Shown here one piece after another: positions 36,501 to 62,510 of a stretch of 64,000 nucleotides of DNA. The stretch is from Rhodospirillaceae bacterium. Its GTDB lineage: Bacteria > Pseudomonadota > Alphaproteobacteria > Dongiales > Dongiaceae. Position 1 is the stretch's first letter, and every line of letters begins with the position of its first letter. The stretch lies in NCBI GenBank assembly GCA_008012315.1, contig SSEL01000053.1, positions 1 through 64,000 of the forward strand, given 5' to 3'. The position numbers and the translations under genes are program-made. The notes under the pieces are model-generated. The model saw only the letters and a list, made by a program, of their open reading frames with translations, searched no databases and was not told where the DNA came from.

Positions 36501-38392
36501 AGGCCGCCCGCATAGAGGGCCGGGTACCGAACGCTCAGGAGCTGTACGACAAGGCCATCCGCGAGGCTCACAAATACGGGTTCGTGCACAACCAGGCGAT
36601 CGCTAACGAACTTGCCGGCCGTTTCTACGCAGAGCGCGGCTACGAGAAGATCGCGGCTGCCTATTTGCGGGCCGCGCGGGCCTGCTACCTGCGCTGGGGA
36701 GCCGACGGAAAGGTTCGACAACTCGAGGAGCTTTATCCGCACCTCAAAGTGGACAAGTCGATCCCGGATTCCACGGCGACGATAGCGACACCCGTCGAGC
36801 AGCTCGATTTGGCTACCGTAATCAGGGTCTTGGAAACAGTCTCAGGCGAGATTGTTTTCGAGAAGCTAATCAACACGCTCATGAGTTCGGCAATCGAACA
36901 CGCGGGCGCCGATCGAGGTCTCTTAATTCTTCCGCGAGGCGACAAATACCAAATTGAAGCGGAGGCCAAAACGAGCAGCAGCAACGTGAACGTGATTCTC
37001 AAACAAGCACGCGTCACGCCCGGTGATCTACCGAAGTCTATATTTCACTATGTCCTTCGAACCAAAGAGCGCGTTCTCCTGAACGATGCGTCCAGTCAGA
37101 AGTCATTCTCAGAGGACGTCTATATTCGCAGCCACTGCTCACGGTCAGTGCTCTGCCTGCCGATACTTAAGCAGACTAGGTTGATTGGGATACTGTACTT
37201 GGAGAATAAGCTTACGACCGGCGCGTTTACTCCTGCTCGAATGGCAGTCCTCACACTGCTCGCTTCCCAGGCGGCTATCTCAATAGAGAACGCCAGCCTG
37301 TACCGCGAACTCGCTGAGCGGGAGGCCAGGATCCGCCGCCTAGTGGACGCCAACATCATCGGAATAGTCTTCTGGGATGGTCGGGATCGCATAGTCGATG
37401 CCAATGATGCGTTTCTTCGTATGGTGGGACTCGACCGCAAGAATCTCGTTTCGGGCGGCGTGCATTGGATGGATCTGACGCCGACCGCCTGGTTCGAACA
37501 TCAGCCCCAATTAAAGGTGCAGGGCAGCCTGCAACCGTTCGAAACGGAACTCTTCCGGGAGGATGGCAGCCTTGTGCCAGTGTTGATTGGTGTGTCCACC
37601 TTCGAGCAAGGTGGGTACAAAGGTGTTGCATTCGTACTTGATCTGAGCGAGCGCAAGCGGGACGCCGACATGTTACGCGCATTGCAGACAGACTTGGCGC
37701 ACGCCAACCGTGTGGCAACGATGGGACAGCTTGCCGGCTCCATCGCACATGAGATGAATCAGCCGATTGGGGCGGTGCGGAATAACGCCCATGCAGCTCT
37801 ACGCTTCCTCACGGCGAATCCGCCTAACATGCCAGAAATCAGGGAGGCGCTGGAGTGTGTGGTGGGCGAAACTTACAGGGCAGGTAACATCATTGGTCGG
37901 ATCCAGGATCAGATAAAGAAGGCTCCGCCCCGTATTGAGAGTATCAATCTGAACAAGGCGATCGAAGAGGTGCTCGCGCTGGTAAGGGGGGAGCTGTCAA
38001 AGAATGGCGTATCGGTTCACGTGCGTACTGCGGAAGGACTATCTCCTGTAAAAGGAGATCGGGTTCAGCTTCAGCAAGTCATGCTTAACCTCATTCTCAA
38101 TTCCATCGAAGCGATGACGAGTGCGGACATTTCGGAGCGGAAAGTGGAGATCACGACGGAATCGCACCACACGGATGGGCTGCTCGTGGCCATAGCCGAT
38201 TCCGGACCAGGCGTCGCAGCGAATGATCTAGAGCGTGTTTTTGAATCCTTCTACACTACAAAGGCCGGTGGATTCGGGATCGGTCTCTCGATATGTCGCT
38301 CTATCATTGATGCCCATGGGGGACGCTTGTGGGCAGAAGCACATCAACCACGTGGCGCCGTCTTCAGATTCACACTGCCGACACATAACTAA
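33569..38392 (+). CDS. Trifunctional protein: Ser/Thr pseudokinase - AAA ATPase - GAF - PAS - histidine kinase
   Basis: 1607 residues from a GTG. A kinase-like domain covers about residues 15-275: the catalytic loop HKDIKPAN is at 138-145, but DFG is GFG (158-160) and no Lys is visible in the usual VAIK strand (AIALFEHP). A large STAND-type ATPase follows (Walker A GYSGIGKSAV near 339, LFLDDMQWLD). A helical repeat region runs to about 1080, then GAF (about 1095-1245), PAS (about 1255-1370) and a histidine kinase core (H-box AHEMNQP near 1394, N-box NLILNSIEAM, G-box GFGIGLSI). This layout is a known family. It probably integrates redox or ligand signals and phosphorylates the FixJ-like regulator encoded just upstream. 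Confidence 0.9.
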   Translation: MESPKGHRTSPILGLSGYVLAPLRESADFTLYRGRKHDDSSPVLAIALFEHPSPQSVRRLLHEYSLAAELDPAWAAKPLAITRHEGRTILLLKDPGGQPLDRILERDKGRPLDLTRFLSTAIGLARTLGQVHQQGLIHKDIKPANVLVDDTGNAWLTGFGIASQLPRERQSPEPPEFIAGTLAYMAPEQTGRINRSIDSRSDLYSLGMTFYEMLTGSLPFAAGDPMEWVHCHIAKQPAAPSERLGTVPGSVSALTMKLLSKTADERYQTAGGVESDLRRCLSQWEAQGRIDDFTPGARDTPDRLMIPEKLYGRDREVDTLRTAFDRIVGGGRAELVLLSGYSGIGKSAVVNELCKPLAPPRGLFASAKSDEYRRDIPHAALAQAFQSLIRRLLSQNEEDLRKSQDAFRDALGSNGLLLVDLIPELRHVIGDQPPVPELPAQEAQRRFQIVLRRFIGVFARPEHPLALFLDDMQWLDAATLDVLEDLLTQPDMKHLLLIGAYRDNEVSSTHPLARKLTAMRQAGAVVQDIVLSPLSRADLARLLVDSLRCQLERAAPLADLIHEKTSGNPFFAIQFIFTLADDRLLTFDYRSRRWVWDLARIRAKGFTDNVVELMVEKLKRLPPETQKVLQQFACMGNSADFEMLRMGYQGSVEDMHEHLWEAVRAGLIFRADNSYSFVHDRVQEAAYLLIPQELRAEAHLRIGILLAEHMRAEKREEAIFEIVNQLNRGSSFITSVEDRERVAELNLIAGRRAKLAAAYDSALKYLRAGRALLAEETWERNRQLIFSIEYLAAECELLNVTVCLAAGDPLAEVQKECENGLAFAKRVRFGLAIERCGAQLGLILTLRGLTARFGCLDHEGYSELDTERRLAKSPDLVLAEFHYWTRKLQAHFFAGDFASAVDAALQAEPLLWTSTAMFESAVYRFYGALAHAAAWDHATPEQRPSHFNALLDHHRELQAWAEVNPETFKDRVALVGAEAARIEGRVPNAQELYDKAIREAHKYGFVHNQAIANELAGRFYAERGYEKIAAAYLRAARACYLRWGADGKVRQLEELYPHLKVDKSIPDSTATIATPVEQLDLATVIRVLETVSGEIVFEKLINTLMSSAIEHAGADRGLLILPRGDKYQIEAEAKTSSSNVNVILKQARVTPGDLPKSIFHYVLRTKERVLLNDASSQKSFSEDVYIRSHCSRSVLCLPILKQTRLIGILYLENKLTTGAFTPARMAVLTLLASQAAISIENASLYRELAEREARIRRLVDANIIGIVFWDGRDRIVDANDAFLRMVGLDRKNLVSGGVHWMDLTPTAWFEHQPQLKVQGSLQPFETELFREDGSLVPVLIGVSTFEQGGYKGVAFVLDLSERKRDADMLRALQTDLAHANRVATMGQLAGSIAHEMNQPIGAVRNNAHAALRFLTANPPNMPEIREALECVVGETYRAGNIIGRIQDQIKKAPPRIESINLNKAIEEVLALVRGELSKNGVSVHVRTAEGLSPVKGDRVQLQQVMLNLILNSIEAMTSADISERKVEITTESHHTDGLLVAIADSGPGVAANDLERVFESFYTTKAGGFGIGLSICRSIIDAHGGRLWAEAHQPRGAVFRFTLPTHN

Positions 38393-40972: not shown

Positions 40973-41608
40973 TCACTTGTGGTATTTCTGGGCGATTTCG
41001 TCGAGCGATGGGTAAAACTGGGTCCAGACATCGTCTTTTTTGGCGCTGGCAATGTGGCAGAAGGCACATTCCTCTTTTGGCTTGACAGATGCTGTTTTTG
41101 CTTTCGGTTCGTAGTGGTGAAAGTTGTAGTAGCCCCAGCCACCGGTGGCTGCGTAGCGCTTGGAATCCTTCACCGTCACGTCGGCGCCATTAAAGGCGCC
41201 TGGAAAATACCCGCGACCCGACGGCTCGGTCCTTGAACCGTCTGGTTCTTCGCCTTTGACCGTGAGCTGCAATTCCTTGAAGAAGATCGTTCCTTCAGGG
41301 AATTCTCCGGTCTTCTCGTAGATCGCAAATGATCCGGGCTCGATATAGACGTTGTGGAATTCCGGAAAGTTCGCCTGGCCGCCGTTAAGTCCATTAGGCG
41401 TGAGCGGCGAGCCCACATAGACCCAGTGACGCCAATTTTTTGGCAGAATTAGATCGCCGTTTGCGGTGTATTCGGGAAGATACCGCTGGGGCGCCGCGCT
41501 CTCACTGTTCGTCGACTGGGCTTGACTTGCCGTGGAGTCGATGAACGCGGCGCCCGCGAGTACGCCGCCGGTTAGTGCGAGAAAGGTAAACATCGCTTTT
41601 CTATTCAT
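40973..41608 (-). CDS. Cytochrome P460 family protein
   Basis: 211 residues. A signal peptide covers residues 1-30. The P460 fold reads LPKNWRHWVYVGSPLTPNGLNGG, then EGTIFFKELQL, whose lysine sits where family members cross-link the haem. One CxxCH (CAFCH, residues 181-185) binds a c-type haem. Characterised P460 cytochromes oxidise hydroxylamine and NO in the periplasm. GAGGACAG precedes the ATG. Together with the NsrR-linked cluster 3 kb away it adds to a reactive-nitrogen theme, though the two are separated by an integrase scar. Confidence 0.88.
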   Translation of the reverse strand: MNRKAMFTFLALTGGVLAGAAFIDSTASQAQSTNSESAAPQRYLPEYTANGDLILPKNWRHWVYVGSPLTPNGLNGGQANFPEFHNVYIEPGSFAIYEKTGEFPEGTIFFKELQLTVKGEEPDGSRTEPSGRGYFPGAFNGADVTVKDSKRYAATGGWGYYNFHHYEPKAKTASVKPKEECAFCHIASAKKDDVWTQFYPSLDEIAQKYHK

Positions 41609-42993: not shown

Positions 42994-43763
42994 TCATTGC
43001 ATCCAGATCATTGCGGCGGCGAGTTGCAGGAAGCTGAGGAAATATGTGGCTCGTCGGTCGAAGCGAGTTGCGATGCGTCGGAAGTGCTTGAGCTTGTTGA
43101 AACACCTTTCGATGGTGTTTCGGACCTTGTAGGCCTCGAAGTCGTAGGGGATCAGCTGCTTTCGGGTGGGATTGCAGGGGATCACCGCTTCGGCGCCGAT
43201 GTCGGCGATCAAGCCTCGCAAGGCATTGGAATCATATGCCTTGTCTGCAAGCACGCGGCGCGGTGAAAGCCCCTCAAGCAAGGCGGGGGCGATTGGGGCA
43301 TCGCCGCGCTGGCCGGGCGTAAGAAGAAGCCTGAGCGGTCGGCCGAGGCCATCTACTGCCATGTGGATCTTGGTCGTCAGTCCTCCTCTGGAACGCCCCA
43401 AAGCCTGGTCCCCCCTTTTTGGCCGCTGCCCTTTCCGGTGGCTGCCTGCTGATGGGCGCGCACGAGGCTCGAATCAAGACTGACGTAGTCATTGTCGGGA
43501 TCGTCGATGAGGTGGGCGAAGACATGCTCCCATACGCCCGCCTTCGCCTACCGCGTGAAGCGCTTGTGGGCGGTCTTCCATTTACCGTAACGCTCGGGCA
43601 GGTCGTGCCAGTGCGCGCCCGAACGCAGCACCCACAGCACGCCGTTGACGAAATTGAGATTGTCGGCGCCTGAGCGGCCCGGATCATCGGGCTTGCCGGG
43701 CAACAAATCACTGATCTCGTGCCATTGGTCGGCAGTCAGTTCGTAGCGCTTCGGCTTTGCCAT
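42994..43763 (-). pseudogene. IS5/IS427-type transposase, two frames, with an amber codon
   Basis: Frame A begins MAKPKRYELTADQWHEISDLLPG at 43763. At 43550-43548 a TAG replaces the expected Trp after WKTAHKRFTR, and the conserved reading continues with AKAGVWEHVFAHLIDD. At 43420-43410 the run AAAAAGGGGGG allows a -1 shift into frame B (QALGRSRGGLTTKIH, ending AAAMIWMQ at 42994). Frame B has the DDE-family segments VLADKAYDSNALR and RNTIERCFNKLKHFRR. The -1 shift is normal for the group; the amber codon makes this copy inactive unless suppressed. Confidence 0.8.
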
Positions 43764-43801
43764 CATGGGGCTCCAGATCAGCGAATCTGGAGCCCCATGA
43801 T
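43762..43801 (-). promoter_or_regulatory. Perfect hairpin enclosing the transposase start
   Basis: Arms of 17 bp (43762-43778 and 43785-43801) with a 6-base loop. On the mRNA the 3' arm ATCTGGAGCCCCATGAT contains both GGAG and the start codon. Transcripts entering from outside the IS would fold and hide the start. Confidence 0.7.
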
Positions 43802-44189
43802 ACATACATCACGACAAAACTGAATCCTGAATGTCGATTGGTCCTAGGGCAGGGTAAGCATCCAGCGAGAACTTTCTCTTTCCCCAATCTTATAACGGGG
43901 CCGCCAATATTTGCCGCCGGTGGGAGTGACATAAACGTACAGGCCCCGCCCGTCGTTCAATTTGTAAGGTTCTCGCGCGGCTTGGCAGTTTAGATTTTCA
44001 GGTCTGTCAGCAAGGCGATTCTCTCCATACCCGCTTTTTGCCGGTAGGATACCCACTTTATACCCGCTTCTGCGCGCGCTTGCTGGGAACGGGGTGGGAC
44101 AACCTGAGAAGAGTTTTTGGCTAAATGCCTTGAAAATCAAGGATTTTGCGACTGACTGAGATCGTCTGAAACAAGTGGTTGGCGGACCG

Positions 44190-44230
44190 CGACCGATAGT
44201 GATGAGCACTATGTTTACGCCATTGCACTC
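44190..44230 (+). pseudogene. Tiny PIN-toxin-like fragment at the IS3 remnant edge
   Basis: ACCGATAG-T-GATGAGCACTATGTTT reads TDSDEHYVYAIAL. It is nearly identical to the last codons of the recombinase frame at 56832-56870. DxDDEHYVxAIAL is a segment of VapC-like PIN proteins. The IS3 remnant begins directly after it (TGAACTG). Only this short piece remains. Confidence 0.45.
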
Positions 44231-44291
44231 TGAACTGATGGGGAGGACACTTTTCCCCCGAAAAAACACCAAAATAGCAGAAGACTACCGC

Positions 44292-44666
44292 CTACTCACC
44301 GCCAGGCTGAAGCAGCAGAAGAAACAGCGCAGCCTGCGGTCCGAGGTGCTGATCTTGCGCGATCCAATATTCCTCGAGTGGATGGGCAGAGGTAGAGTCC
44401 TTCCAATATTTGGCTGCTTGTCTTGCGATCTCGGCGGGGGTGCGCCCACCCAGTTTCGAGTGTGGCCTGACCGTGTTGTAATCGTGCTGCCATTCGGCCA
44501 GTTCCGCCAGTGTATGGGCCAGTGTTGTGAACAGCGTTTCGTTCAGACATTCGTCGCGCAACTTGCCGTTGAAGCACTCGATGAACGCATACTGGGTCGG
44601 CTTGCCGGCGGCAGTATCGCCCACGGTCATGCTGGCATGGCTGTCAACGGCAGAGCTGCGCGTCAT
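44292..44666 (-). pseudogene. IS3-family transposase OrfB, C-terminal fragment
   Basis: GKPTQYAFIECFNGKLRDEC, then LAEWQHDYNTVRPHSKLGGRTPAE, is the C-terminal part of the IS3 OrfB integrase core (the last catalytic Glu lies in FIECFNG). Homology begins abruptly at about 44612, so the first two catalytic Asp residues are missing. Beyond that point the cytochrome c gene begins. It marks the left edge of the nitric-oxide module. Confidence 0.75.
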
Positions 44667-45124
44667 TGCAGCGTGTGGAGGTAGGCGATCAGATCGGCGC
44701 GATCCTGCGGATTCTTCAACCCGGCAAACGCCATCCGGTTGCCTTTGACCAGACCCTGCGGATTTTCGAGATAGGCCGACAAGGTTGCATCATCCCACGT
44801 GAGATTGGCGGACTGCATCGCCGGGGAATAGGCAAAATCAGCCAGCGATGCCGAAGCCTTGCCCGTAATTGCATGAAGCGATGGGCCAATGCCGTTCTTG
44901 CCGGGTGCGATACTGTGGCAGGACGCACATCGGGCGAAGAGGGTTTTGCCGTGGGCTACGGGATCGGTAGCCGCTGCAGCAGCCGGCTTGAGGGCTTGCG
45001 CTGGTGCAGCAGCGACAGGATCAGTCTGCGTTGTGCTTGAAGAAGTTGGCGCATCGTCGGCGCTCTTCCCGCAGGCGGCAAGCGCGAAGGTCAGTGCGAA
45101 AAGCGGGATAAATATGCGTTTCAT
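44663..45124 (-). CDS. Class I cytochrome c, lipoprotein-anchored
   Basis: 153 residues from MKRIFIPLFALT. A lipobox LAAC near residue 19 predicts a lipid anchor, and an Ala/Pro linker follows. One haem site CASCH lies near residue 71, followed by GIGPSLHAITGK and a Met-ligand region NRMAFAGL. It would carry electrons in the periplasm, most simply to the CuA subunit of the haem-copper enzyme encoded in the same operon. The start overlaps the upstream gene by ATGA. A longer frame to 45268 is rejected. Confidence 0.9.
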   Translation of the reverse strand: MKRIFIPLFALTFALAACGKSADDAPTSSSTTQTDPVAAAPAQALKPAAAAATDPVAHGKTLFARCASCHSIAPGKNGIGPSLHAITGKASASLADFAYSPAMQSANLTWDDATLSAYLENPQGLVKGNRMAFAGLKNPQDRADLIAYLHTLQ

Positions 45125-45711
45125 GCGGAAACTCCTGATTGAACGGGCGCTATGGGTTTTGCGCGGGTGCGCGGCAATGCACGTGGCCGCCCGTTGAAAA
45201 GCAGCGGGATCGTCCATGCCATGGCGAGGCCGATGGCGAGGAACAGGAAGCCGTAGCCCAGCCGCCACTGATCATCGATCAGATAATTGTTGCACAATCG
45301 AACCGGGGAATGGGTGAACAGGAAGGCCATGAATCCCGCCATCGAGATGGCCTGGGCTTTCAGGAAACCGCTCAACAAGGCGTGCGCCTGCCGCCAGCCA
45401 ATCGCGAGCAGGGCCCCTATCAACGGGACCGACAGAAACTTTGCCAGTGTCATCACCGGGAAACTCACCGCGCCATCGATCGAGCGGGGTAGCATCCAGA
45501 AGGCAATACCGGACAGGGCAGCCAGCAATGGCGCAAACCCGCCCTGCGCCCAGCGCCATTCGCGGCGCGGTGCCAGCAATGCGCCGCAGAGGCCGAGCAT
45601 GGGCAGTTGCACCAGCACGTGCAGCACAGGATCAGCTTCAAGCGCGCGGTTCCCCAATATGCAGGCGAACATGATGATGGCGGCCAAGCCCGGTCGCAGG
45701 CGACGCTTCAT
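45121..45711 (-). CDS. Integral membrane protein of the haem-copper cluster
   Basis: 196 residues with five or six hydrophobic spans and several His (HVLVQLP, HALLSGF, HSPVRL), plus NYLIDDQWRLGYGF before the last span. I do not recognise the family with confidence. It resembles CtaG-like assembly proteins in length and His content. Overlaps of 4 bp with both neighbours (cytochrome c and SCO1) show translational coupling, so assembly or copper/haem delivery for the adjacent enzyme is the best guess. Confidence 0.7.
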   Translation of the reverse strand: MKRRLRPGLAAIIMFACILGNRALEADPVLHVLVQLPMLGLCGALLAPRREWRWAQGGFAPLLAALSGIAFWMLPRSIDGAVSFPVMTLAKFLSVPLIGALLAIGWRQAHALLSGFLKAQAISMAGFMAFLFTHSPVRLCNNYLIDDQWRLGYGFLFLAIGLAMAWTIPLLFNGRPRALPRTRAKPIAPVQSGVSA

Positions 45712-46310
45712 CGCAAGGCCTTTCGCGCGGCGGCAATAATCCCTTCGAAATCACCAGTGTCGTGGATTGCTGCCAACCTGCCATCTGCCGTCACCACATG
45801 AACCGCAACATTGTGGGTATAGCCACCCATCCGGTCAGGGATGGCGATTACGCCGAAATCATTCAATATTTGCGGGAGCACTTCGGCCCGTGGGCGCGCG
45901 ATGGTCCACAGCGCGCCGTCGGCATCATGCCGCTCCCCATAAGATTCCATCCGTTCGACCGTATCGAATTCGGGATCGAAACTGACCGACATCAGCGTGA
46001 CTCGATCAGCAAGCCCGGCTTCCCTGACCCTGTTTCCCAGCCGGAACATATCTGCCCCGGCGGATTGGCACAGCGTCGGGCAGGTGGTGTAGATGAACTC
46101 AACCAGAGCCACTTTGCCGTGAGCATCAGGGATCGTGGCCGATGCGCCTGACATGGTTTCCAGCGCAAATGGCGAAACCGGCTGCGGGGCGCGCTGGACG
46201 ACAAGGCGCCGCGCGCTTTCCGCTGTCAGCGCCTGCCCGCCATCGGTTGCCTGCCACAGCAGCCCGCCCCCGGCAGCAACAACCAACAGCGATGCCAGCA
46301 GCGCCTGCAT
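45708..46310 (-). CDS. SCO1/SenC copper chaperone
   Basis: 200 residues. One N-terminal membrane anchor is followed by a thioredoxin fold with the copper-binding CPTLC (TTCPTLCQ near residue 78) and the conserved His in GYTHNVAVHVV near residue 168. SCO proteins load the CuA centre of subunit II, encoded two genes upstream. It ends overlapping the next gene by four bases and starts five bases after the subunit I stop. Confidence 0.93.
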   Translation of the reverse strand: MQALLASLLVVAAGGGLLWQATDGGQALTAESARRLVVQRAPQPVSPFALETMSGASATIPDAHGKVALVEFIYTTCPTLCQSAGADMFRLGNRVREAGLADRVTLMSVSFDPEFDTVERMESYGERHDADGALWTIARPRAEVLPQILNDFGVIAIPDRMGGYTHNVAVHVVTADGRLAAIHDTGDFEGIIAAARKALR

Positions 46311-46314
46311 CGCA

Positions 46315-47772
46315 TCACCGCCCCGCCGAGTGTTTCAGCCCCAGCAGATAGCGCAGCACAAACATCGCCGCGCCCACGATAACGAGCAAGGCAAAGCCCG
46401 TGGCGATCTGGCTTTGCAGCACCCATTCCGGCGCATGCACCGCCCAGCGGCGCGGCACCGAAAGCGCACCGGAGACCAGGAACATCAGGGTAAATCCTGT
46501 TCCGCCGAGAACATAGGCGCTGAATGCGGCCCAGTTGAAGCCGCCGGCGGCCTTGTGTTCGGGCTTACCGATGAGCCACATCATGAAGCCGAAGGCCATC
46601 GCCACTTCACCGAGGATGAGGTAAATGTGAAAATGTCCCGGAACCCACTGGGTGTTGTGCATCACCTTGTTGACCGAAATCATGCCGTCGATGATCGCCG
46701 GTACCGACCCCACCGACCAGCCCGCAACCCCCAGAACCAGCAGTGCCGAAGCCAGATCCCAGCGCATGGCATCTGCCTTGCGCAGATAGACGATCAGCGA
46801 GAAGGCCGTCACCGTGAGCAGTGGAATGCCAGACAGGTAGGAAACAATCTGGCCCATCGCCAGCGACCATGCGGGCATGACCGTGTCCTGCAACAGGTGG
46901 TGCGGATAGACCGCCATGACAAACAGCAACACCAGCGACCATGCCACGGCAAAAATGCGCGATGTTTTCCAGGGGGTGCCGGTATATTCCGGGATGATTT
47001 CGTAAACCGCGATCACCGCCATGTAGATGCTGGCGTTGATGAATACATGGCCGAAGAAATAGATCATGTTCTTGGCCAGCAAGGCATCGACCTTGAACTC
47101 AGGGAAATAGAGATTGACGAGGCTGCTGGCGAGAACCGCCGCGCCAACCACCGTGCCGATGGTGTTGAAGATCGTGGTCGCCATCGCCGCCACGACAGCG
47201 GGCGGCGGCGCATTTTCTGCCGCGCCTTTGCTCATCACCAGCGGCCAGGCCAGCGCCCCGCCGATGCCGCCATAGGCCGCGATCAGCTTGCGTCCGACTT
47301 CGAGATAGAGCAGCAGAAATGCAACGCCGATGGCGACGTAGCCGAGCAGGAACGCAGCCGCCGCATCCGTTCCCCAAACCCCGCCGCTATTTGCCGGGAG
47401 CGGGAACAGAAACGTCCACGCGCCGCCATAGCCGCCGATGAAGATTGCGCCAAGGATCAGCACCACGCCGAGCAGGAACAGGCCGAGAAAAGCCCAGAAC
47501 ACCCCGCGCGCCAGCGGCACGTAACGCCCCATGAAATACCACAGGATGGCCGCCCCGGTCAGCCCGGCGGTTCCCACCATGCCTGCGCCATGCGCGGTCA
47601 GCAATTGATAGAACATGGCCGGATCAAGATCGATCAGATTGCCTTGCGCGGCGCGCATGACAAAGCCGAAGATCATCATCAGCAGCAGCACAACCCCTGC
47701 CAGCAGCATGGTGAATTTGACTGCGCCAGCCTGTGGGCCGGGCAACCTTTGCGCAGAGTTGTTGTCCATCAT
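46315..47772 (-). CDS. Haem-copper oxidase superfamily subunit I, atypical; candidate NO reductase
   Basis: 485 residues with twelve or more spans. Low-spin haem ligands are His61 and one of His380/His382 (HNTQWVPGHFH), a B-family (ba3-like) signature. CuB-type ligands are His242, His291 and His292 (YPHH). In oxygen reductases of types A and B the first is part of HPxVY, whose Tyr at +4 is cross-linked to the His. Here it is HVFIN, with Asn246 at +4; the nearest Tyr is +8. Loss of this Tyr is a mark of NO-reducing members such as eNOR and sNOR. The NsrR gene and globin alongside support NO chemistry. AGGGGG eight bases upstream sets the start. Confidence 0.85.
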   Translation of the reverse strand: MMDNNSAQRLPGPQAGAVKFTMLLAGVVLLLMMIFGFVMRAAQGNLIDLDPAMFYQLLTAHGAGMVGTAGLTGAAILWYFMGRYVPLARGVFWAFLGLFLLGVVLILGAIFIGGYGGAWTFLFPLPANSGGVWGTDAAAAFLLGYVAIGVAFLLLYLEVGRKLIAAYGGIGGALAWPLVMSKGAAENAPPPAVVAAMATTIFNTIGTVVGAAVLASSLVNLYFPEFKVDALLAKNMIYFFGHVFINASIYMAVIAVYEIIPEYTGTPWKTSRIFAVAWSLVLLFVMAVYPHHLLQDTVMPAWSLAMGQIVSYLSGIPLLTVTAFSLIVYLRKADAMRWDLASALLVLGVAGWSVGSVPAIIDGMISVNKVMHNTQWVPGHFHIYLILGEVAMAFGFMMWLIGKPEHKAAGGFNWAAFSAYVLGGTGFTLMFLVSGALSVPRRWAVHAPEWVLQSQIATGFALLVIVGAAMFVLRYLLGLKHSAGR

Positions 47773-47785
47773 CGTGCCCCCTGTT

Positions 47786-48301
47786 TCAGTTTGCGGCCGC
47801 GACCGTGAATTCATTGGTCATCGCGTGGTGCGCGACGCCGCAATATTCCATGCAGACGACGCGATAGACACCGGGCTGGCGGAAAACATGCTCCACCTGA
47901 TTCACGTAACCCGGCATCGCCTGCGTCTGGAACAGCAGGCGATCCTGACTATCCATCACCCCGAAACCATGGGTGACGTCGGTCGTGCGGGCATTGAAGG
48001 TGACAGGCACGCCAAGCGGCACGGTTGCGCGATCTATTTCCCAATACCACATGGCCCCGGTCACATTGACGGTGGCGCTTGGCCCGTTCGCAGCGCTGAT
48101 GGCATGCGGCCATGGCCGCAATGATACGGCGGTGACGATAACCCCAACCGCCAGCAAGGCATAGATGAAGCGCGTTCGCACAGCTTCACGAGGAGCGCCG
48201 GTATCAGGTTTGCGGCTGGCGCGAACAGCGCTGATAAAGAACCCTGCAACCACTGCCATCAGCACCAGGCTGATCAACAGCACACCAGATTGGATTGGCA
48301 T
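47786..48301 (-). CDS. CuA-containing subunit II of the haem-copper enzyme
   Basis: 171 residues from MPIQSGVLL with AGGGGGCG upstream. Two hydrophobic spans lie near the N-terminus. A cupredoxin domain follows with WYWEI, the His in TTDVTHGFGV and the CuA motif CMEYCGVAHHAM near the C-terminus, with all usual ligands. It accepts electrons from cytochrome c and passes them to subunit I. It is first in the five-gene minus-strand operon, 13 bp before subunit I. No c-type haem is fused to it. Confidence 0.92.
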   Translation of the reverse strand: MPIQSGVLLISLVLMAVVAGFFISAVRASRKPDTGAPREAVRTRFIYALLAVGVIVTAVSLRPWPHAISAANGPSATVNVTGAMWYWEIDRATVPLGVPVTFNARTTDVTHGFGVMDSQDRLLFQTQAMPGYVNQVEHVFRQPGVYRVVCMEYCGVAHHAMTNEFTVAAAN

Positions 48302-48317
48302 CGCCCGCCCCCTTATC

Positions 48318-48334
48318 ACGTATGTTATATACGT
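48318..48334. promoter_or_regulatory. Palindrome upstream of the haem-copper operon
   Basis: ACGTAT-N5-ATACGT is perfect and lies 16 bp upstream of the subunit II start codon. With the NsrR-like gene next to it, it is a good candidate operator. Confidence 0.5.
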
Positions 48335-48364
48335 AAATAAGGTCAGGCGATATCGCCTGTCAAA

Positions 48365-48820
48365 TCAATTCGAGGGCGCGGGTTCAGGAGGCTTTTCTTC
48401 GAGCAAGGCCGCAAACCGCGCACGATTAGGCGTCAGGTCTGACAGTTGATACTGGTCGAGGCAGCGCAGAAAATCAGCCAGCGCGCGAGACAGCGCGCCC
48501 TGCAGGCCGCAAGCACCCACCACGGGGCAACCATTTGTTTTTGCCTGCATACATTCAACAAAACCGTCGAGACTCTCCATCTCCCGGACAACCGCGCCTA
48601 CATTGATCTCTTCGGCAGGCTTTGCCAGCCTGAGACCGCCGCCCCTGCCACGCGTCGCCTGCACGAGTTCGAGCGCCTGTAGCCGATGTGCGACTTTGGC
48701 CAGATGGTTGCGGGAGATGCCATAGCGGCGCGCGATATCGTCGACCGACATCTGCTCCCCAAACGACGACAAGGCCATCAGGATGCGCAGGGCGTAATCG
48801 GTTTGCAGGCTCAAATGCAT
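48365..48820 (-). CDS. Rrf2-family regulator, NsrR-like (NO-sensing)
   Basis: 151 residues from MHLSLQTDYALRIL. The winged helix is at about residues 2-65. Cluster ligands Cys90, Cys98 and Cys104 follow the NsrR pattern (ECMQAKTNGCPVVGAC). Asp8 is also present; it is the fourth ligand in the Streptomyces NsrR. NsrR represses NO-detoxification genes until NO destroys its [4Fe-4S] cluster. It lies between the haem-copper operon (same strand) and the divergent globin gene. Confidence 0.85.
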   Translation of the reverse strand: MHLSLQTDYALRILMALSSFGEQMSVDDIARRYGISRNHLAKVAHRLQALELVQATRGRGGGLRLAKPAEEINVGAVVREMESLDGFVECMQAKTNGCPVVGACGLQGALSRALADFLRCLDQYQLSDLTPNRARFAALLEEKPPEPAPSN

Positions 48821-48866
48821 CAATGGCGTATATGAGATATTGCTTTTCGCCTCAAGGAATGGAATA

Positions 48867-48885
48867 GATGTATTTCATATGCGTC
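48867..48885. promoter_or_regulatory. Candidate NsrR site before the globin gene
   Basis: GATGTATTTCATATGCGTC is an imperfect palindrome centred at 48876. Its left half GATGTATTT matches the NsrR half-site. It starts 34 bp upstream of the globin ATG. Confidence 0.45.
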
Positions 48886-48900
48886 TTTAAGGGATATGTC

Positions 48901-49416
48901 ATGGAACAGTCTGGTGCAGGCACGGGCACACATCCAGGCGCTGGGGCAAGGCCCCCGGTAAACGATCATGCGCGGCGCGCGCGGGAGGCCAAACGCGCCA
49001 ACGCCGAATTACTGGGCATCGACGCCGATTTCATCGCTCTTCTTGTCGAGCGTTTTTATGCGCGCATCAGAGACGACGAGCTTCTCGGCCCGATCTTCGC
49101 GCAGAGGATTACGGACTGGCCTCAGCATCTCGATAAAATGAACCGCTTCTGGCGATCAATCCTGCACAATAGCGGTGAATTTTCGGGCAATCCGATGGTC
49201 AAACACATGGCCATACCGGGGCTGGAAAGCCGCCATTTCGAACATTGGCTCGCCCTGTTCTACGCCACCCTGTCCGAAATCGAAACCTCTGCCCAGGCCA
49301 CCTGGCTGGTGGCTGACAAGGCCAGAATGATCGCCGACAGCCTGCTGACCGGCATCGAAGTCAATCGTCGCGGCATGGGCGGTGCTCGCGCTGGAAAGGG
49401 ATTGCCCCATGCTTGA
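48901..49416 (+). CDS. Group III truncated haemoglobin
   Basis: 171 residues from MEQSGAGTG; AAGGGATATG precedes it. A polar 35-residue N-terminal extension is followed by the 2-on-2 globin: FIALLVERFYARIRDDELLG, PIFAQRI, then FWRSILHNSGEFSG and the proximal His in SRHFEHWLALF. TrHb3 proteins are often found with denitrification or NO-response genes and may bind or detoxify NO. The NsrR-like site upstream supports that role. It overlaps the next gene by eight bases. Confidence 0.9.
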   Translation: MEQSGAGTGTHPGAGARPPVNDHARRAREAKRANAELLGIDADFIALLVERFYARIRDDELLGPIFAQRITDWPQHLDKMNRFWRSILHNSGEFSGNPMVKHMAIPGLESRHFEHWLALFYATLSEIETSAQATWLVADKARMIADSLLTGIEVNRRGMGGARAGKGLPHA

Positions 49417-49846
49417 CGATCACAGCCCGGCAACGGGGGACACCGAAGCGGTTGCCGACATGTCGGCTGACAAACTCCTTCCGCCCGACCATGAAACCAG
49501 CGGGGTGCAGCATGGATTCCAGTTTCCCGCCTGGATCTGGGGTGCGATGCTGGGGTGTTATGCGATATTTTTCCTGTCCGTAACGCTGGCAACCGGGAGC
49601 GGAGGCAGAGCTGTCTTCGCCATCGTCGTTTCGATGCTCTACACAGCCATGTATTTTGGCCTCGCCACCGTCCTGTCCTCGATCAAGGGTCATGAAAAGC
49701 CATCGCCGCTGGCGCAGGGCAGGCCGCTGCAAACCTGGACTGGGCCGATGAGTTCGTCAGCCGTTGCCGGGCAGGTTCTGGCCATCCCGCTCGCGCTCGT
49801 CGTGTTCGGGATTGGGATTTTGCTGATCGTCGTGATCGTAACGTAA
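49409..49846 (+). CDS. Small membrane protein of the globin operon
   Basis: 145 residues from MLDDHSPAT. A polar first third is followed by three hydrophobic spans (WIWGAMLGCYAIFFLSV; FAIVVSMLYTAMYFGLA; and the C-terminal span). No family is recognised. The start overlaps the globin stop, so it is cotranslated. A role linked to haem or NO handling is guessed from context only. Confidence 0.7.
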   Translation: MLDDHSPATGDTEAVADMSADKLLPPDHETSGVQHGFQFPAWIWGAMLGCYAIFFLSVTLATGSGGRAVFAIVVSMLYTAMYFGLATVLSSIKGHEKPSPLAQGRPLQTWTGPMSSSAVAGQVLAIPLALVVFGIGILLIVVIVT

Positions 49847-49924
49847 CGCAAGCCGGGAACCCTGACCTGCGGCGCGCCTTGCCCGTAGCTGCAACAAAGC
49901 GCCATTGACTTACCTTCGATCCAT

Positions 49925-50542
49925 ATGCATAGGACTACGATGCATAGTGATGGCGACCTTCTTGACGCGCAAATCAGCTTTGGGCTGGAACGGATCGCGG
50001 CCTATGCCCGGCAGAAGCAGTGGGCAGTTGCTGAGCAATATGGCCTGACGCCGACGCAAATCGCGATCCTCGAACTTGCCGCAGCGCGCACCGATGGTGT
50101 CCGCCTGACCAAAGCCGCAGCGCAAATCGGCGTATCCCAACCCACCGCCAGCGATGCGGCGGGGGCTCTGGTCGCCAAACAACTGCTTGAACGCGCGCCA
50201 GATCCGGATGATCGCAGGGCCCAACGTCTCACCCCGACAAAGCAAGGGGCGCAACTGGTTTCTCGCCTGTCGCGCGGCCATTCCGCTGTTGCGGTGGCCG
50301 TCCCCCAGCAAAGGCGGGCGGGCCTTTTTGCAACATTGGCGCAAACCATCGCCACCCTCCAAAGTAGCGGCGAAGTGCCGATCCAGCGCATGTGTCTGAC
50401 CTGCAGTCAGTTTGAACAGGGTCGGCATGATGATGCAAAACTGCCGAACCATTGCCGGTATCTTGATCAGCCCATCGGCCCGTTGGGCATGATGCTGGAT
50501 TGTACGGATCATATCATGTCCGCCGATTTGGAACCGGCATAA
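49925..50542 (+). CDS. MarR-like regulator with a Cys/His-rich C-terminal extension
   Basis: 205 residues from 49925, or 200 from an ATG at 49940. A winged helix at about residues 25-115 reads LTPTQIAILELAAARTDG, SQPTASDAAGALVAKQLL and DPDDRRAQRLTPT. The C-terminal 60 residues add CLTCSQF, HCRYLD and LDCTDH, six potential metal or redox ligands that MarR proteins normally lack. Two ATGCAT boxes and AGGACT surround its start. It is followed by two thioredoxin-fold genes, so thiol or metal redox sensing is likely. Confidence 0.75.
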   Translation: MHRTTMHSDGDLLDAQISFGLERIAAYARQKQWAVAEQYGLTPTQIAILELAAARTDGVRLTKAAAQIGVSQPTASDAAGALVAKQLLERAPDPDDRRAQRLTPTKQGAQLVSRLSRGHSAVAVAVPQQRRAGLFATLAQTIATLQSSGEVPIQRMCLTCSQFEQGRHDDAKLPNHCRYLDQPIGPLGMMLDCTDHIMSADLEPA

Positions 50543-50670
50543 AGCTGCGGGCGCTGGCGCGACCGTAGAAACCTGATTGAGCCATCGCTGCCTCCGCAGG
50601 GGGAGCGATGCTGATCCCCGTAGGCGGGCCGCCTGCAATTATGCGCACACAAACCTGCGCATAATATATA

Positions 50671-50681
50671 TAGGAGTCCTA
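50671..50681. promoter_or_regulatory. Short palindrome before the glutaredoxin-like gene
   Basis: TAGGA-G-TCCTA lies in an AT-rich stretch, five bases before the ATG at 50687. TAGGACTA occurs near the MarR start at about 49930, so both may bind the same regulator. It also contains the ribosome site AGGAG. Confidence 0.4.
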
Positions 50682-50686
50682 ATATA

Positions 50687-50926
50687 ATGAGCGTTGCAAC
50701 ATTCTATCACGCCGGTTGTTCGGTGTGCGTCGATGCGGAACAGAATCTCGCTTACGCGCTTGATCCTGCACGCTATACCGTTGAAATCGTTAATTTCGCC
50801 GACAGCCCGGAACGGATTGCCGAAGCCGAAACGGCTGGCGTTCAATCTGTGCCAGCCTTCGTGATCGACGGAAGCGTATTCCACGTCAATCACGGTGCCA
50901 CGATGGCGCAAGTGAAGGGCGAATAA
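50687..50926 (+). CDS. Glutaredoxin/thioredoxin-fold small protein
   Basis: 79 residues. The redox pair is CSVC (residues 11-14), the cis-Pro is in QSVPAFVIDG, and the fold is minimal thioredoxin-like (ATFYHAGCSVCVDAEQ). The start follows AGGAG within the palindromic operator. It may serve as reductant for the peroxiredoxin-like protein encoded next. Confidence 0.82.
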   Translation: MSVATFYHAGCSVCVDAEQNLAYALDPARYTVEIVNFADSPERIAEAETAGVQSVPAFVIDGSVFHVNHGATMAQVKGE

Positions 50927-50994
50927 TCCCGCACTCCAGCGGCGGCATCTGCGGGAGGGTGCCGCCGCTGACGCTCCAACAGCAAGGAAAGCAC

Positions 50995-51465
50995 ATGAAC
51001 ACGAAATCCAATCCCCCAGACTGGCAGGTCGCGCAATGGTTCAACACCGCCAAGCCACTGTCGCTTGCCACGCTCTCAGGCCGCGCCGTCATTCTGGTCG
51101 CGTTCCAGATGTTGTGCCCGGGCTGTGTCAGTCACGCGCTACCTCAACTCCAGCGCGTGCGCGCCGCGTTCAAGGAAGCGGACCTTGCCGTGGTTGGCTT
51201 GCACAGCGTGTTCGAACACCACGCAGCGCAGGGAACCAGCGAAGCGCTGACGGCCTTTCTGAAAGAATATCGCATCACCTTTCCGGTGGGGATCGATGCT
51301 CCTGCGGTAACGCGCGGATTACCAGCGACAATGCAGACATATCAGATGCGCGGCACGCCAACGACGCTCATTTACACGCGCGATGGCGGGCTTTTTACCC
51401 ACCACTTCGGCCACATCGACGATCTGAACCTGGGCGCGCTGCTGGCGCAGGCAATTGCCATTTAG
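50995..51465 (+). CDS. Thioredoxin-fold (TlpA/redoxin-like) protein
   Basis: 156 residues from MNTKSNPPDW with AAGGAAAG upstream. CPGC lies in the active-site position near residue 42 (FQMLCPGCVSHALP), with cis-Pro in GTPTTLIY. No signal peptide is seen, so it is cytoplasmic. It forms a set with the MarR-like and glutaredoxin-like genes. Confidence 0.85.
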   Translation: MNTKSNPPDWQVAQWFNTAKPLSLATLSGRAVILVAFQMLCPGCVSHALPQLQRVRAAFKEADLAVVGLHSVFEHHAAQGTSEALTAFLKEYRITFPVGIDAPAVTRGLPATMQTYQMRGTPTTLIYTRDGGLFTHHFGHIDDLNLGALLAQAIAI

Positions 51466-51562
51466 TGACCTGCGGCGTTGCTGACAGTTGACGATAATAT
51501 CGCATCATTTTTCGCCATCCCCCGCTTTGTATCTGTATCCGGCCAGAATGCTGCACGTTCCA

Positions 51563-51712: not shown

Positions 51713-52291
51713 CCCCAGGAGAACATCCGATGGACAAGAATTGCATCCCGCAAATCAGGTGCCGAAGTCGGACGCTTACGTGTAGAAAACTGAGTGCCCC
51801 GTAATTCCGACAGCGACATGTGCCGCGAGCGCTACAGCACCGCCTCACTGCAGCGCGATGCCGGCGCCGATGAGCACGGAAGACTGCGCGGCGTATCAGA
51901 CTTGGGCCGCAACTTCGCAGACCGGCGCGCACGAGCGTCGAATAGTGTCCCGATACCTGCTATGGAGGAGAAATGGCGATGGCGAATACTTCCAGAAAAT
52001 CGAAGCCAAATAAGAGGGCAAGATAAAGCGAGATTCCTCGCTGCCGGGGTGCTGCCCCTAAGTATCTGTCTGCACATTGTTTTTGAGCGGATTTCGACCC
52101 GTTTTGCGAAGTGACCGGGTGGCGCTCCCGGCGTTTTTTCGTTTGTTATCAATGCAAAGATAGGCGGCGCTTGCCGTGTGCGGCTTCTGGCCCTCCGCCG
52201 TTTGCCGCCGCTGGCAAGCCGTTGCACGCTAGGCTGCTATGCTGTGATTTGCGGTCTTGCGCAGCTGACTCCAACTCTCAATCGTCATGCC
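51713..52291. other. Non-coding stretch upstream of the relaxase gene
   Basis: About 580 bp with no supported gene. The likely place for an oriT, but I could not identify a nic site. It contains one hairpin with a T-run (52115-52140). Confidence 0.4.
52115..52140 (+). terminator. Intrinsic terminator-like hairpin
   Basis: CCGGG (52115-52119) pairs with CCCGG (52127-52131) across a 7-base loop, followed by CG and six T. No plus-strand gene ends just upstream, so it may insulate the relaxase gene from read-through. Confidence 0.5.
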
Positions 52292-54400
52292 ATGAGTGGT
52301 GATGACGAGAGCTTTCGTATCCGTCCCGGCAGGGTCCGCGATCACGGCGCAGGCTTGGCCCGTGTGGCCCGCGCGCGCCCGGTGCGCCATCGCCCGAAGA
52401 GCTTCACGGCGCAGGTCAGTCTGGCGATCCGCCGCGCTGGCGGGAACCCCAATCAGCTGTCCGGAACGCGGAAAGCAAGCGGGCGGTGCAATGCGCGGGG
52501 CCGGGGCGCGAAGGTTGCAGCCGGATTGAAGGGCCGGAACGGGTGGAGTCGGGGCGCAAACGGGGTTCGCACCCGCGCGCGCCGGGTGGCGGTGAAGGCG
52601 CGGATCGTGAAACTCAATCCGCAGCGCGGGGGCACGCGCGGGCGGCAGTTTGTAAGCGCCAAGGCGGTGGATGCGCATCTGCGATATCTGGAGCGCGACG
52701 GCGTTACCCGCGATGGCGAGAAGGGCCAGGTCTATTCGGCTGACCATGATGTGGCGGATGGTTCTGCCTTTCTCGACCGGGGCCGCGAGGATCGCCACCA
52801 GTTCCGCTTCATCGTATCGGCAGAGGACGGCGTCGAGTTTTCCGATCTTCGCCAGACCACGCGTGACCTGATGGCGCAGATGGAAGCCGACCTTGGCACG
52901 AAGCTCGACTGGATTGCCGTAGATCATCACAACACTGGGCACCCCCACACCCATATTCTGGTGCGCGGTGTTACCGAGGACGGCAAGCGGCTCGACATTG
53001 CGGGGGACTATATCGCCCACGGCATCCGCGAACGGGCGAGCGAGATCGTCACGCTGGAACTGGGCCGCCAGACCGAGCAGGAGGTCAGCAGCCAGCTTGA
53101 ACGCGAGGTGGATGCCGAACGGTTCACCCGGCTCGATCGGATGTTGATTGCCGAGCAGGACGCAGGCAGCGAGTTTGCCGATCTTCGTCCTGACAAGGAC
53201 ATGGCCCTGACCATGCGCCAGAACCGGGCGTTGATGATCGACCGTGCCCGAAAGCTGGAGCGGATGGGGCTGGCAACCGAGCATACGCCGGGTGTGTGGA
53301 CCATTTCACCCCGCGCCGAACCCGTGTTGCGCGAGATGGGCACGCGCGGCGACATCATCAAATCGATGCATCAGGCGCTGGACCGCGAGGGGCTGGCGCA
53401 GCAGCGAGCCCTTGCAGGCTTCACAGTCCATCAAGCTGCACCGACACAACGGATCGTCGGGCGCGTTGTCACCAAAACACTGGGCAGCGACGAGCTGGGT
53501 GAACGCATGGGGATCACCATCGATGGGATGGATGGCCGCGTTCATTACCTTGAGGTTCCCGCATCCAAGGTCGAGCATATCAGTCGCGGGAGCGTCGTGG
53601 CAATCAATCCACCACCCAGCATCGCACGAACTTCAGATGAGAACATCCTCCAGCAGACCGATGCCAACGGGATTTATCGACCATCGGCCCATCTGGCATC
53701 GGTTCGCGAGACCATGCCCCGGATCGACCACGAGCGGCATGTCCAGTCACATGTCCGCAGGCTTGAAGCCTTGCGCCGCGCAGGAATTGTAGAACGCCTC
53801 GATGCCGATCGCTGGAGCATTCCCGCCGACCTGCCCGAACGCGGCCTTGCCTATGACCGGCAGCGGTTTGGGAAAGGCCAGCGTATTGAAGAACTGTCGC
53901 ACCTGCCCCTCGACCGGCAGGTGCGCCACGAGGGAGCAACCTGGCTCGACCGGACGATGCTGGAGGGCGGACGCGAGACCATGCTGCATACAGGGTTCGG
54001 CGGCGATGTCCGCAAGGAATGGGACGCACGCAAACAGGCGCTTACCGACATGGGCTATGTTCGCGATCTTGGCGGCGGGAAGTTCCGCGCACCCAGTGAC
54101 CTGATCGCGCAGCTGGAGCAGTCCGAGGTCAACCGGGCTGGCAGGAAGTTCGCCGCAGAGCGCGGGCTCACCTGGCAGCCGACCGGGACCGGAGATCGTG
54201 TGTCGGGCAAGCTCGTCGGTCAGGCACAGCTCGCCAGCGGGCGGTTCGCCATGATCGACAATGGTCTCGGGTTCCAACTTGTGCCTTGGAACGACGCGCT
54301 CGGAAAACGGCTTGGCCAACAGATCAACGGCATCGCCATGTCTGGCGGGGGCGTCGATTGGACGCTTGGGCGGAGCCGCAGCCGGGGGCTGGGATTATGA
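52292..54400 (+). CDS. MOB-type relaxase/DUF3363 (VirD2-like) protein
   Basis: 702 residues from MSGDDESFRIRPGR. A basic, DNA-binding N-terminus of about 115 residues (many Arg) precedes the relaxase core. The three-His metal motif is DHHNTGHPHTHIL near residues 211-223. DRHQFRFIVSAEDG is typical of the DUF3363 family. The long C-terminal half (about 350-702) is DUF3363. It would nick oriT and pilot the strand in conjugation. No type IV secretion genes are in the window, so the element may be only mobilisable. An upstream start at 52178 lacks support. Confidence 0.9.
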   Translation: MSGDDESFRIRPGRVRDHGAGLARVARARPVRHRPKSFTAQVSLAIRRAGGNPNQLSGTRKASGRCNARGRGAKVAAGLKGRNGWSRGANGVRTRARRVAVKARIVKLNPQRGGTRGRQFVSAKAVDAHLRYLERDGVTRDGEKGQVYSADHDVADGSAFLDRGREDRHQFRFIVSAEDGVEFSDLRQTTRDLMAQMEADLGTKLDWIAVDHHNTGHPHTHILVRGVTEDGKRLDIAGDYIAHGIRERASEIVTLELGRQTEQEVSSQLEREVDAERFTRLDRMLIAEQDAGSEFADLRPDKDMALTMRQNRALMIDRARKLERMGLATEHTPGVWTISPRAEPVLREMGTRGDIIKSMHQALDREGLAQQRALAGFTVHQAAPTQRIVGRVVTKTLGSDELGERMGITIDGMDGRVHYLEVPASKVEHISRGSVVAINPPPSIARTSDENILQQTDANGIYRPSAHLASVRETMPRIDHERHVQSHVRRLEALRRAGIVERLDADRWSIPADLPERGLAYDRQRFGKGQRIEELSHLPLDRQVRHEGATWLDRTMLEGGRETMLHTGFGGDVRKEWDARKQALTDMGYVRDLGGGKFRAPSDLIAQLEQSEVNRAGRKFAAERGLTWQPTGTGDRVSGKLVGQAQLASGRFAMIDNGLGFQLVPWNDALGKRLGQQINGIAMSGGGVDWTLGRSRSRGLGL

Positions 54401-55350: not shown

Positions 55351-55653
55351 ATGACGAGCAAGGTCACCAATAGCATCCAACGCAAACCTGGTGACGCGGA
55401 TGCCTTTGCCGAGTGCACTGCGCTGGCGACCCGCTTTAGCGTCCATATTCCGTAAGAAATCGACGTGAAAGCAATCCGGGCCAAGCTCGGCATGACCCAG
55501 CTGGAGTTCGCCAGGCGTTTCGGACTCTCGATCAAGACGCTCCGGCATTGGGAGCAAAAGCAGCGCGTGCCCGAAGGCCCTACGCGCGCCTATCTTCTAG
55601 TCATCGACCGCGACCCTGACGCGGTGCAACGCGCGTTGAGGAGCGCAGCATGA
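55351..55653 (+). pseudogene. HTH antitoxin-type gene with an in-frame stop
   Basis: MTSKVTNSI at 55351 through ATRFSVHIP is followed by TAA (55453-55455). The same frame then continues with EIDVKAIRAKLGMTQLEFAR, LSIKTLRHWEQ and PEGPTRAYLLVIDRDP, the well-known HTH antitoxin of RelE/HigB partners. A single base change would close the gap. The second part could still be made from a GTG at 55465 (62 residues) and bind DNA. No toxin gene remains upstream. The stop overlaps the recombinase ATG. Confidence 0.7.
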
Positions 55654-56876
55654 CCGCCGCGTCGTCCAGCTCCGTGCCGCTGCGCGCTGCGCTGTATCTG
55701 CGCGTTTCGACCGCGCGGCAGGCCGAGCACGACGTATCGATCCCGGATCAGCGCAAGCAGGGGGAGGCTTATTGCGCTGCGCGCGGCTATCAGCTGGTCG
55801 AGACCTTCGTCGATGCAGGCGCGTCCGCTACCAACGACCGCCGCCCTGAATTCCAAAAGCTGATCGAAGCAGGAACCGCCAAGCCCGCACCTTTCGAGGT
55901 GGTGGTGGTCCATTCGTTCAGCCGGTTTTTCCGCGATCACTTCGAGCTGGAGTTCTACGTCCGCAAGCTCGCGAAGAACGGCATTCGTCTCGTATCGATC
56001 ACCCAGGAGATGGGCGACGACCCGATGCACGTCATGATGCGGCAGATCATGGCGCTGTTCGACGAGTATCAGTCCAAGGAAAACGCCAAGCACGTCCTTC
56101 GCGCCCTGAAGGAAAACGCGCGGCAGGGGTTCTGGAATGGCTCGCTGCCACCGATCGGCTACCGCGTCGTCGCCGCCGAGCAGCGCGGGGCCAAGATCAA
56201 GAAGAAGCTGGAGATCGACCCGCTCCATGCCGATACCGTGCGGCTCGCTTTCCGGCTCGCGCTGGAGGGCGATGGCACATCGGGGCCTATGGGCGTCAAG
56301 GCCATCACCAAATACCTCAACGAACGCCGCATCTTCACCCGTGACGGCGGGCGTTGGGGGATCGGCACCGTCCACCGGATGTTGACTCGCAAGACCTATA
56401 TCGGACGGCACGAGTTCAACCGCCGCACCAAGAACGGTGACAACAAGCCCGACGAGGAAGTCATCCCTGTCTCTGTTCCGCCGATCATCGATCAGGCGAC
56501 GTTCGACGCAGTGCAGGCGCGCATGAAAGCACGCAATCCCAAGGTGACACCGCCGCAGGTCGTCGGCGGCCCCACGCTGCTTACCGGTCTGATCCACTGC
56601 GCCAAGTGCGGCGGTGCCATGACCATCCGCACCGGCAAGGGTGGGCGCTATCGCTACTACACCTGTTCAACCAAGGCACGGCAGGGGCCCACCGCTTGCA
56701 GCGGCATGACCGTGCCGATGGAAAAGCTCGACACGCTGGTGGCAAAGCATCTGGAGGAGCGCTTGCTCGATCCTGCGCGTCTGGAGGAGGTGTTGGCGGC
56801 AGTCCTCGACAGGCGGCAGGAGCGGGCCACGACCGATAGCGATGAGCACTATGTTTTCGCTATAGCCCTACGATGA
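55650..56876 (+). CDS. Large serine recombinase, C-terminally truncated
   Basis: 408 residues. The catalytic domain carries the Ser in YLRVSTARQAEHDVSIPDQ (about residue 21). The recombinase domain (about 170-280) has GYRVV and RMLTRKTYIGRHEFNRRTK. A zinc ribbon (CAKCGGAM, YYTCSTKARQG) follows. Homology runs to LDRRQER near residue 393; the usual long coiled coil after it is missing. The last 13 residues (TDSDEHYVFAIAL) belong to a PIN-toxin gene, so the 3' end was replaced by a deletion. Activity is doubtful. Confidence 0.85.
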   Translation: MTAASSSSVPLRAALYLRVSTARQAEHDVSIPDQRKQGEAYCAARGYQLVETFVDAGASATNDRRPEFQKLIEAGTAKPAPFEVVVVHSFSRFFRDHFELEFYVRKLAKNGIRLVSITQEMGDDPMHVMMRQIMALFDEYQSKENAKHVLRALKENARQGFWNGSLPPIGYRVVAAEQRGAKIKKKLEIDPLHADTVRLAFRLALEGDGTSGPMGVKAITKYLNERRIFTRDGGRWGIGTVHRMLTRKTYIGRHEFNRRTKNGDNKPDEEVIPVSVPPIIDQATFDAVQARMKARNPKVTPPQVVGGPTLLTGLIHCAKCGGAMTIRTGKGGRYRYYTCSTKARQGPTACSGMTVPMEKLDTLVAKHLEERLLDPARLEEVLAAVLDRRQERATTDSDEHYVFAIALR

Positions 56877-57283: not shown

Positions 57284-57589
57284 ATGAGTGGCAACCGCAT
57301 GAAGTCCCCCGCCCATCCTGGTGGCTTCGTGAAGGCCGAGGTTATCGGCCCTCTCGGCTTGTCGGTCACTGCCGCGGCAGATGCTCTTGGTGTCACCCGT
57401 GCCGCTTTGTCGGCGCTGTTGAATGAGCGAGCTGATTTGTCGCCAGAGATGGCGATCCGCATCGAGAAGGCGTTTGGCATTTCAATGGAGACCCTCATGC
57501 GGATGCAGAACAGCTTTGACATCGCGGAGGCGCGTAAGAAGGCCAAAGAAGTCAATGTGGCGCCTTATGCAGGAAAGGCGTCGGAATGA
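57284..57589 (+). CDS. higA: HigA-family antitoxin, apparently without toxin
   Basis: 101 residues from [14 protein letters not shown]; an earlier TTG at 57269 and a later ATG at 57299 are alternatives. The HTH reads [34 protein letters not shown] and IRIEKAFG, the standard HigA motif. HigA genes normally follow higB; here the preceding DNA has no intact higB. It lies 79 bp before the defence helicase on the same strand, so it could control that operon. Confidence 0.88.
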
Positions 57590-57668
57590 ACATTCCTATC
57601 GCGCCCCATTTGGTTGCAAAAAGCTTTTGGACGAAGGCTCCAGAACTCCAGGGAAAGCCGGCCGTCGC

Positions 57669-62509: not shown

Positions 62510-62510
62510 C

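Follow-up and report, generated by a model that had tools for sequence, protein, structure and literature searches.

NO reductases set the bacterial release of N2O, a greenhouse gas. One type within the haem-copper superfamily, sNOR, is recognized by an Asn at the site where oxygen reductases have a cross-linked Tyr, by a CuA subunit and by the lack of a proton channel; at the same site eNOR has Gln, gNOR has Asp, and cNOR and qNOR have Glu (PMC8756737). The sNOR genes are arranged in the order norSY-senC-orf1 (PMC4940428). Since norSY was earlier named coxB2A2 (PMC6967387), norS is the gene for the CuA subunit and norY that for subunit I. Ruegeria pomeroyi DSS-3 counts among the named carriers because it was formerly a Silicibacter, a genus listed for sNOR. 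The literature names sNOR a proposed NO reductase, O2 reduction was argued in one paper, and indirect evidence of its activity in Nitrococcus mobilis has been quoted (PMC6967387); the literature searched contained no activity measurement on purified sNOR. This described but poorly tested type of copper-containing NO reductase was found here in a seemingly movable block together with putative NO-responsive control elements. The enzyme type and its Asn were known already; the Rrf2/NsrR-like gene neighbourhood and the operator-like palindromes are what this analysis adds.

The window, the whole stretch of DNA that was analysed, consists of 64,000 nucleotides of contig SSEL01000053.1 from a Rhodospirillaceae bacterium (GCA_008012315.1). 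The genes of the locus are the following.

47786 to 48301, minus strand: norS, CuA subunit II (Pfam COX2); ATG 48301 is preferred, the frame being open to GTG 48319
46315 to 47772, minus strand: norY, putative sNOR catalytic subunit I; 485 amino acids from ATG 47772, with Asn246 at the cross-link position
45708 to 46310, minus strand: senC/SCO1 copper chaperone (Pfam SCO1-SenC; CPTLC motif)
45121 to 45711, minus strand: orf1, membrane protein; no Pfam match, about 4 predicted helices
44663 to 45268, minus strand: lipoprotein cytochrome c (Pfam Cytochrom_C); lipobox LAAC and one CASCH haem site
48365 to 48823, minus strand: Rrf2-family, NsrR/RirA-like regulator; candidate cluster cysteines C91, C99 and C105
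48901 to 49416, plus strand: truncated (bacterial-like) globin (Pfam Bac_globin)
49382 to 49846, plus strand: small membrane protein, also in the block; no Pfam match, 3 predicted helices
49925 to 50542, plus strand: MarR-family regulator with a Cys-rich C-terminus

The minus-strand order is norS, norY, senC, orf1 and then the lipoprotein cytochrome c gene, whose open reading frame probably has its true start internally. A sequence-only reading of this DNA had placed a CuA subunit, SCO1, a cytochrome c, an Rrf2 regulator and a globin near subunit I, and all of them were found by Pfam, NCBIfam and motif searches; orf1 is an operon gene absent from that description. NorS has two predicted N-terminal membrane helices, and its CuA ligands (C156-x-E-x-C160-x3-H164-x2-M167 and His117, numbered from 48319) are invariant in 8 homologues. 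The arrangement recurs at homologous loci, Nitrosomonas halophila included, with a CuA gene at 85 of 87, SenC at 85 of 87 and orf1 at 83 of 87. In R. pomeroyi the locus holds a group III globin, Rrf2, CuA, subunit I, SCO, membrane protein and cytochrome c genes, which is nearly the neighbourhood in the window. The window therefore has in common with the sNOR of ammonia-oxidizing bacteria and R. pomeroyi the active-site Asn, the CuA subunit II, SenC, orf1 and the gene order; it differs from these in having, within a movable block, a linked NsrR-like gene in the direction of the operon, the lipoprotein cytochrome c and a divergent globin-MarR set. Many Rhodobacterales have a cbb3 oxidase operon next to that of sNOR (L007 1201-4586; L027, L028, L031-L033, L043-L046).

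The product of norY matched Pfam COX1 over residues 18-468 with 149 bits, and none of the NCBIfam oxidase models reached its cut-off (best 39 bits versus 671 needed). A second open start at 47814 would give 499 amino acids. The earlier description of 46315-47772 as a haem-copper subunit I is true once the minus strand is specified; translation of a plus-strand frame across the same interval gave an unrelated, spurious overlapping product. NorY contains the complete set of six haem/CuB histidines, and the residues read from its translation are His61, His242, Asn246, Tyr250, His291, His292, His372, His380 and His382, so the ligands listed in that reading stand at the numbers it gave. A profile alignment set HVFIN of NorY on HPIVY of the Thermus thermophilus ba3 oxidase (PDB 1EHK), and therefore Asn246 takes the place of Tyr237. 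The two proteins have the fold, the six histidines, a CuA subunit and the helix X motif HNTxWVPGHFH in common, helix X being the part that the sequence-only reading had called B-family; the cross-linked Tyr237 and the K-channel residues Tyr244 and Ser309 of the Thermus enzyme are replaced in NorY. An AlphaFold model of NorY (mean pLDDT 82) showed similar levels of match to aa3, bo3, ba3 and cbb3 oxidases and to the NOR of Roseobacter denitrificans, a comparison of predicted structure that does not discriminate among them.

The active site was then compared in an alignment of 99 rows, composed of 88 subunit I homologues (the window protein included), 6 B-family and 5 A-family proteins. The column four residues after His242 (His+4) contained Asn in all 88 distinct homologues and Tyr in the 6 B-family and 5 A-family proteins, in agreement with the claim that Asn246 stands where oxygen reductases have their cross-linked Tyr. 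The Asn at this position is not due to chance. Two other tyrosines could be considered as replacements and both were ruled out by register. Tyr250, raised as a possible occupant of the cross-link position, lies at His+8, a column that is an invariant Tyr in the homologues and Leu or Met in the oxygen reductases; it cannot form a His-Tyr bond because it is two helical turns from the histidine. The helix VII position six residues before the His-His pair, which is the known cross-link Tyr site of the cbb3 (C-family) enzymes, has a Tyr in the genome's own cbb3 protein; this residue is Val285 in NorY, and the column is Val in 85/88 homologues and Ala or Thr in the others. As for the B-family K-channel, the position of Tyr244 is Val in 84/88 homologues (Ile or Leu in the remainder) and Val in NorY, that of Ser309 is Leu, Val, Ile or Ala in 88/88 and Leu in NorY, and Tyr248 and Thr312 are retained in the homologues and in NorY. 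Judged by these residues, the K-channel of NorY is broken and a complete proton channel is lacking, as the definition of sNOR requires. NorY is probably not proton-pumping because the complete K-channel is missing.

In a quick, unrooted tree constructed without bNOR, eNOR or gNOR references, a branch with SH-aLRT 99 set all 88 sNOR rows, R. pomeroyi and N. halophila among them, off from the B-family (99) and A-family (99) proteins. NorY was thus outside the sampled oxygen-reducing B-family enzymes, a grouping that had been named as a check. Its closest rows were two groundwater alphaproteobacterial MAGs (98 and 96% identity); subunit I identity was 66% to R. pomeroyi and 51% to N. halophila. 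The window accordingly combines the active-site Asn, an adjoining CuA gene, the norSY-senC-orf1 order and grouping with the named carriers. The Gln of eNOR and the His+4 Tyr of the B-family oxygen reductases are both replaced by Asn246, and the helix VII Tyr of the C family by Val285. The sequence-only reading had suggested a likely CuA-type NO reductase with a B-family helix X, and had named eNOR and sNOR as NO-reducing relatives. A CuA-type NO reductase with B-family kinship is the best reading, in the form of sNOR; an eNOR identity was rejected since eNOR, although likewise a B-family-related CuA NO reductase that lacks the Tyr, has Gln there (PMC8756737). With residue, operon and tree in agreement, the assignment of NorY to the described sNOR kind of CuA NO reductase is well supported, and NO reduction would be its expected activity.

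A possible basis for control by NO lies next to the operon. The three cysteines C91, C99 and C105 of the Rrf2 protein are arranged like those that bind the cluster in NsrR and RirA. The protein scored below the NCBIfam cut-offs for NsrR (109 bits versus 182) and RirA (111 versus 193) and fits the RirA model as well as the NsrR model. Rrf2/NsrR-like genes were present beside 53/87 homologous loci. A 2005 survey, which found almost no NsrR in Alphaproteobacteria, published the NsrR operator as gATGyAT-N5-ATrCATc (PMC1274295). Two palindromes of this kind were found in the window.

48316 to 48336, minus strand: TTACGTATATAACATACGTGA, NsrR-like palindrome before norS; 11/15, the weaker site
48866 to 48886: AGATGTATTTCATATGCGTCT, NsrR-like palindrome before the globin gene; 13/15, a good site

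The globin start at ATG 48901 is the likelier one because the open ATG 48868 falls inside the second palindrome. Regions of 170 bp around norS starts were scanned with the published operator at a threshold of at least 11.5 of 15. The threshold was reached at 38/81 loci, which are related and therefore do not represent 81 independent cases, compared with 3.0% of dinucleotide shuffles; it was reached by 0.9% of 327 other upstream regions of the same loci. The motif had been selected on the basis of what was already known, and the composition of the control regions was not exactly matched. No link between sNOR and NsrR was found in the parts of the searched literature that were available.

The primary function of sNOR is disputed, and conserved NsrR-like operators together with the missing cofactor provide a testable argument for NO reduction. 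The published suggestion to be weighed is that, in spite of lacking the cross-linked Tyr, sNOR actually serves to reduce O2 with high affinity, its genes being expressed under the low-O2 conditions in which NO builds up. Its authors favoured a high-affinity oxidase on finding that the norSY-senC transcripts of Nitrosomonas europaea increase 2.7- to 10.8-fold when O2 is limiting (PMC6967387); B-family relatives reduce O2, and every CuB histidine ligand is retained. However, the helix VI Tyr is missing in 88/88 homologues with only Val, Ala or Thr at the helix VII position, the K-channel is broken, the NsrR-like control and the neighbouring genes point to NO, and the genome already encodes five oxygen reductases. 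The NsrR-like operators and genes favour NO reduction, and we consider the O2 reductase explanation unlikely. The six COX1 proteins of the genome are four A-family proteins, one cbb3 and NorY, the only one of NOR type.

A second enzyme with which NorY could be confused is bNOR, the CuANOR of Bacillus. The type I qCuANOR of Bacillus azotoformans, which is biochemically characterized, likewise has Asn at the Tyr position, a CuA subunit, and a linked SenC and membrane protein (PMC3475470). Its subunit I is longer (gene of 1707 bp), its subunit II has one helix and there is an additional 46-amino-acid peptide; the window enzyme, with a 485-amino-acid subunit I and a two-helix subunit II, corresponds instead to the shorter type II of the same study (PMC3475470). 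On these differences, and with a tree that contained no bNOR sequence, identity with bNOR appears very improbable. An ordinary ba3-like cytochrome c oxidase in which the substitution is neutral is more improbable still, for although the fold and PDB profiles match ba3 and aa3 oxidases and the R. pomeroyi homologue is annotated as a cytochrome c oxidase, the sNOR proteins occupy a long supported branch apart from all sampled ba3-type proteins, their Asn is invariant and the operon differs by its SenC and orf1. That label had been anticipated in the sequence-only reading and is what automatic annotation assigns; sNOR is routinely annotated in this way, and therefore an NO reductase is wrongly counted as missing from such genomes.

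Identification of the operon as sNOR, a CuA-containing haem-copper NO reductase, with NO detoxification as its role, is as a whole highly probable. From the known superfamily and the gene context, electrons would pass from the membrane-anchored cytochrome c, the likely donor to CuA, through CuA in NorS and the low-spin haem to the haem/CuB centre in NorY; there, two NO would be converted to N2O. This reaction would not need the His-Tyr cofactor by which oxygen reductases split O2, and SenC would be the copper supplier. Both norSY and the divergently oriented globin operon are most likely kept silent by the NsrR-like Fe-S repressor for as long as its cluster has not been destroyed by NO; with repression lifted by NO, the block would therefore serve NO detoxification.

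The locus lies in a block that is present elsewhere and is flanked by genes of mobile elements.

44658 to 51524: block in common with another alphaproteobacterial genome (L009), 97% DNA identity, at a different genomic site
42994 to 44666, minus strand: transposase frames of the IS5 family and a transposase remnant of the IS3 family, left of the sNOR block
52178 to 54400 and 55650 to 56876, plus strand: DUF3363/MobA-VirD2-type relaxase and large serine recombinase, right of the sNOR block

The L009 copy is near genes resembling those of leucine biosynthesis. In the window, the IS3-family remnant directly borders the block on its left and the IS5-family transposase is farther out; no inverted repeats were found at this end. 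The relaxase and serine recombinase suggest a mobilizable element to the right. A megablast search of the plasmid collection gave no match to the block, and sNOR was not found in 16 other genomes of the same family. Taken together, these observations point to lateral transfer of the block. Thioredoxin-like and AhpC/TSA-type redox proteins are encoded at its right end (50687-51465, plus strand).

We propose, with somewhat better than even confidence, that across Proteobacteria sNOR is a dedicated member of an NsrR-type NO-stress regulon rather than a respiratory oxidase, and that at least here it is carried as a horizontally moving NO-detoxification cassette comprising the NsrR-like repressor, norSY-senC-orf1, cytochrome c and globin. 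This reading was not found stated in the literature searched and, if true, is relevant to the debate over the function of sNOR. Searches of the genome for NirK and NirS gave weak partial matches only, none convincing, and the NO would then come from outside or from another source. The genome encodes NnrS.

A cytochrome P460 gene (Pfam PF16694) is located at 40973-41608 on the minus strand, some 3 kb away from the sNOR block, and has at least 3 further homologues in the genome (91, 62 and 55% identical), one of these matches spanning a stop codon. P460 enzymes are tied to the chemistry of hydroxylamine and NO leading to N2O. An anti-phage defence set identified by PADLOC, an HmaA-like helicase followed by Septu PtuA and PtuB, occupies 57423-63158 on the plus strand, with 5.9 kb at 83% identity to a Rhizobium rhizogenes plasmid. 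A 1607-amino-acid protein with Ser/Thr-type kinase, AAA_16 ATPase, GAF, PAS and histidine kinase domains is encoded at 33569-38392 on the plus strand, and a LuxR-type response regulator gene at 32856-33566 adjoins it.
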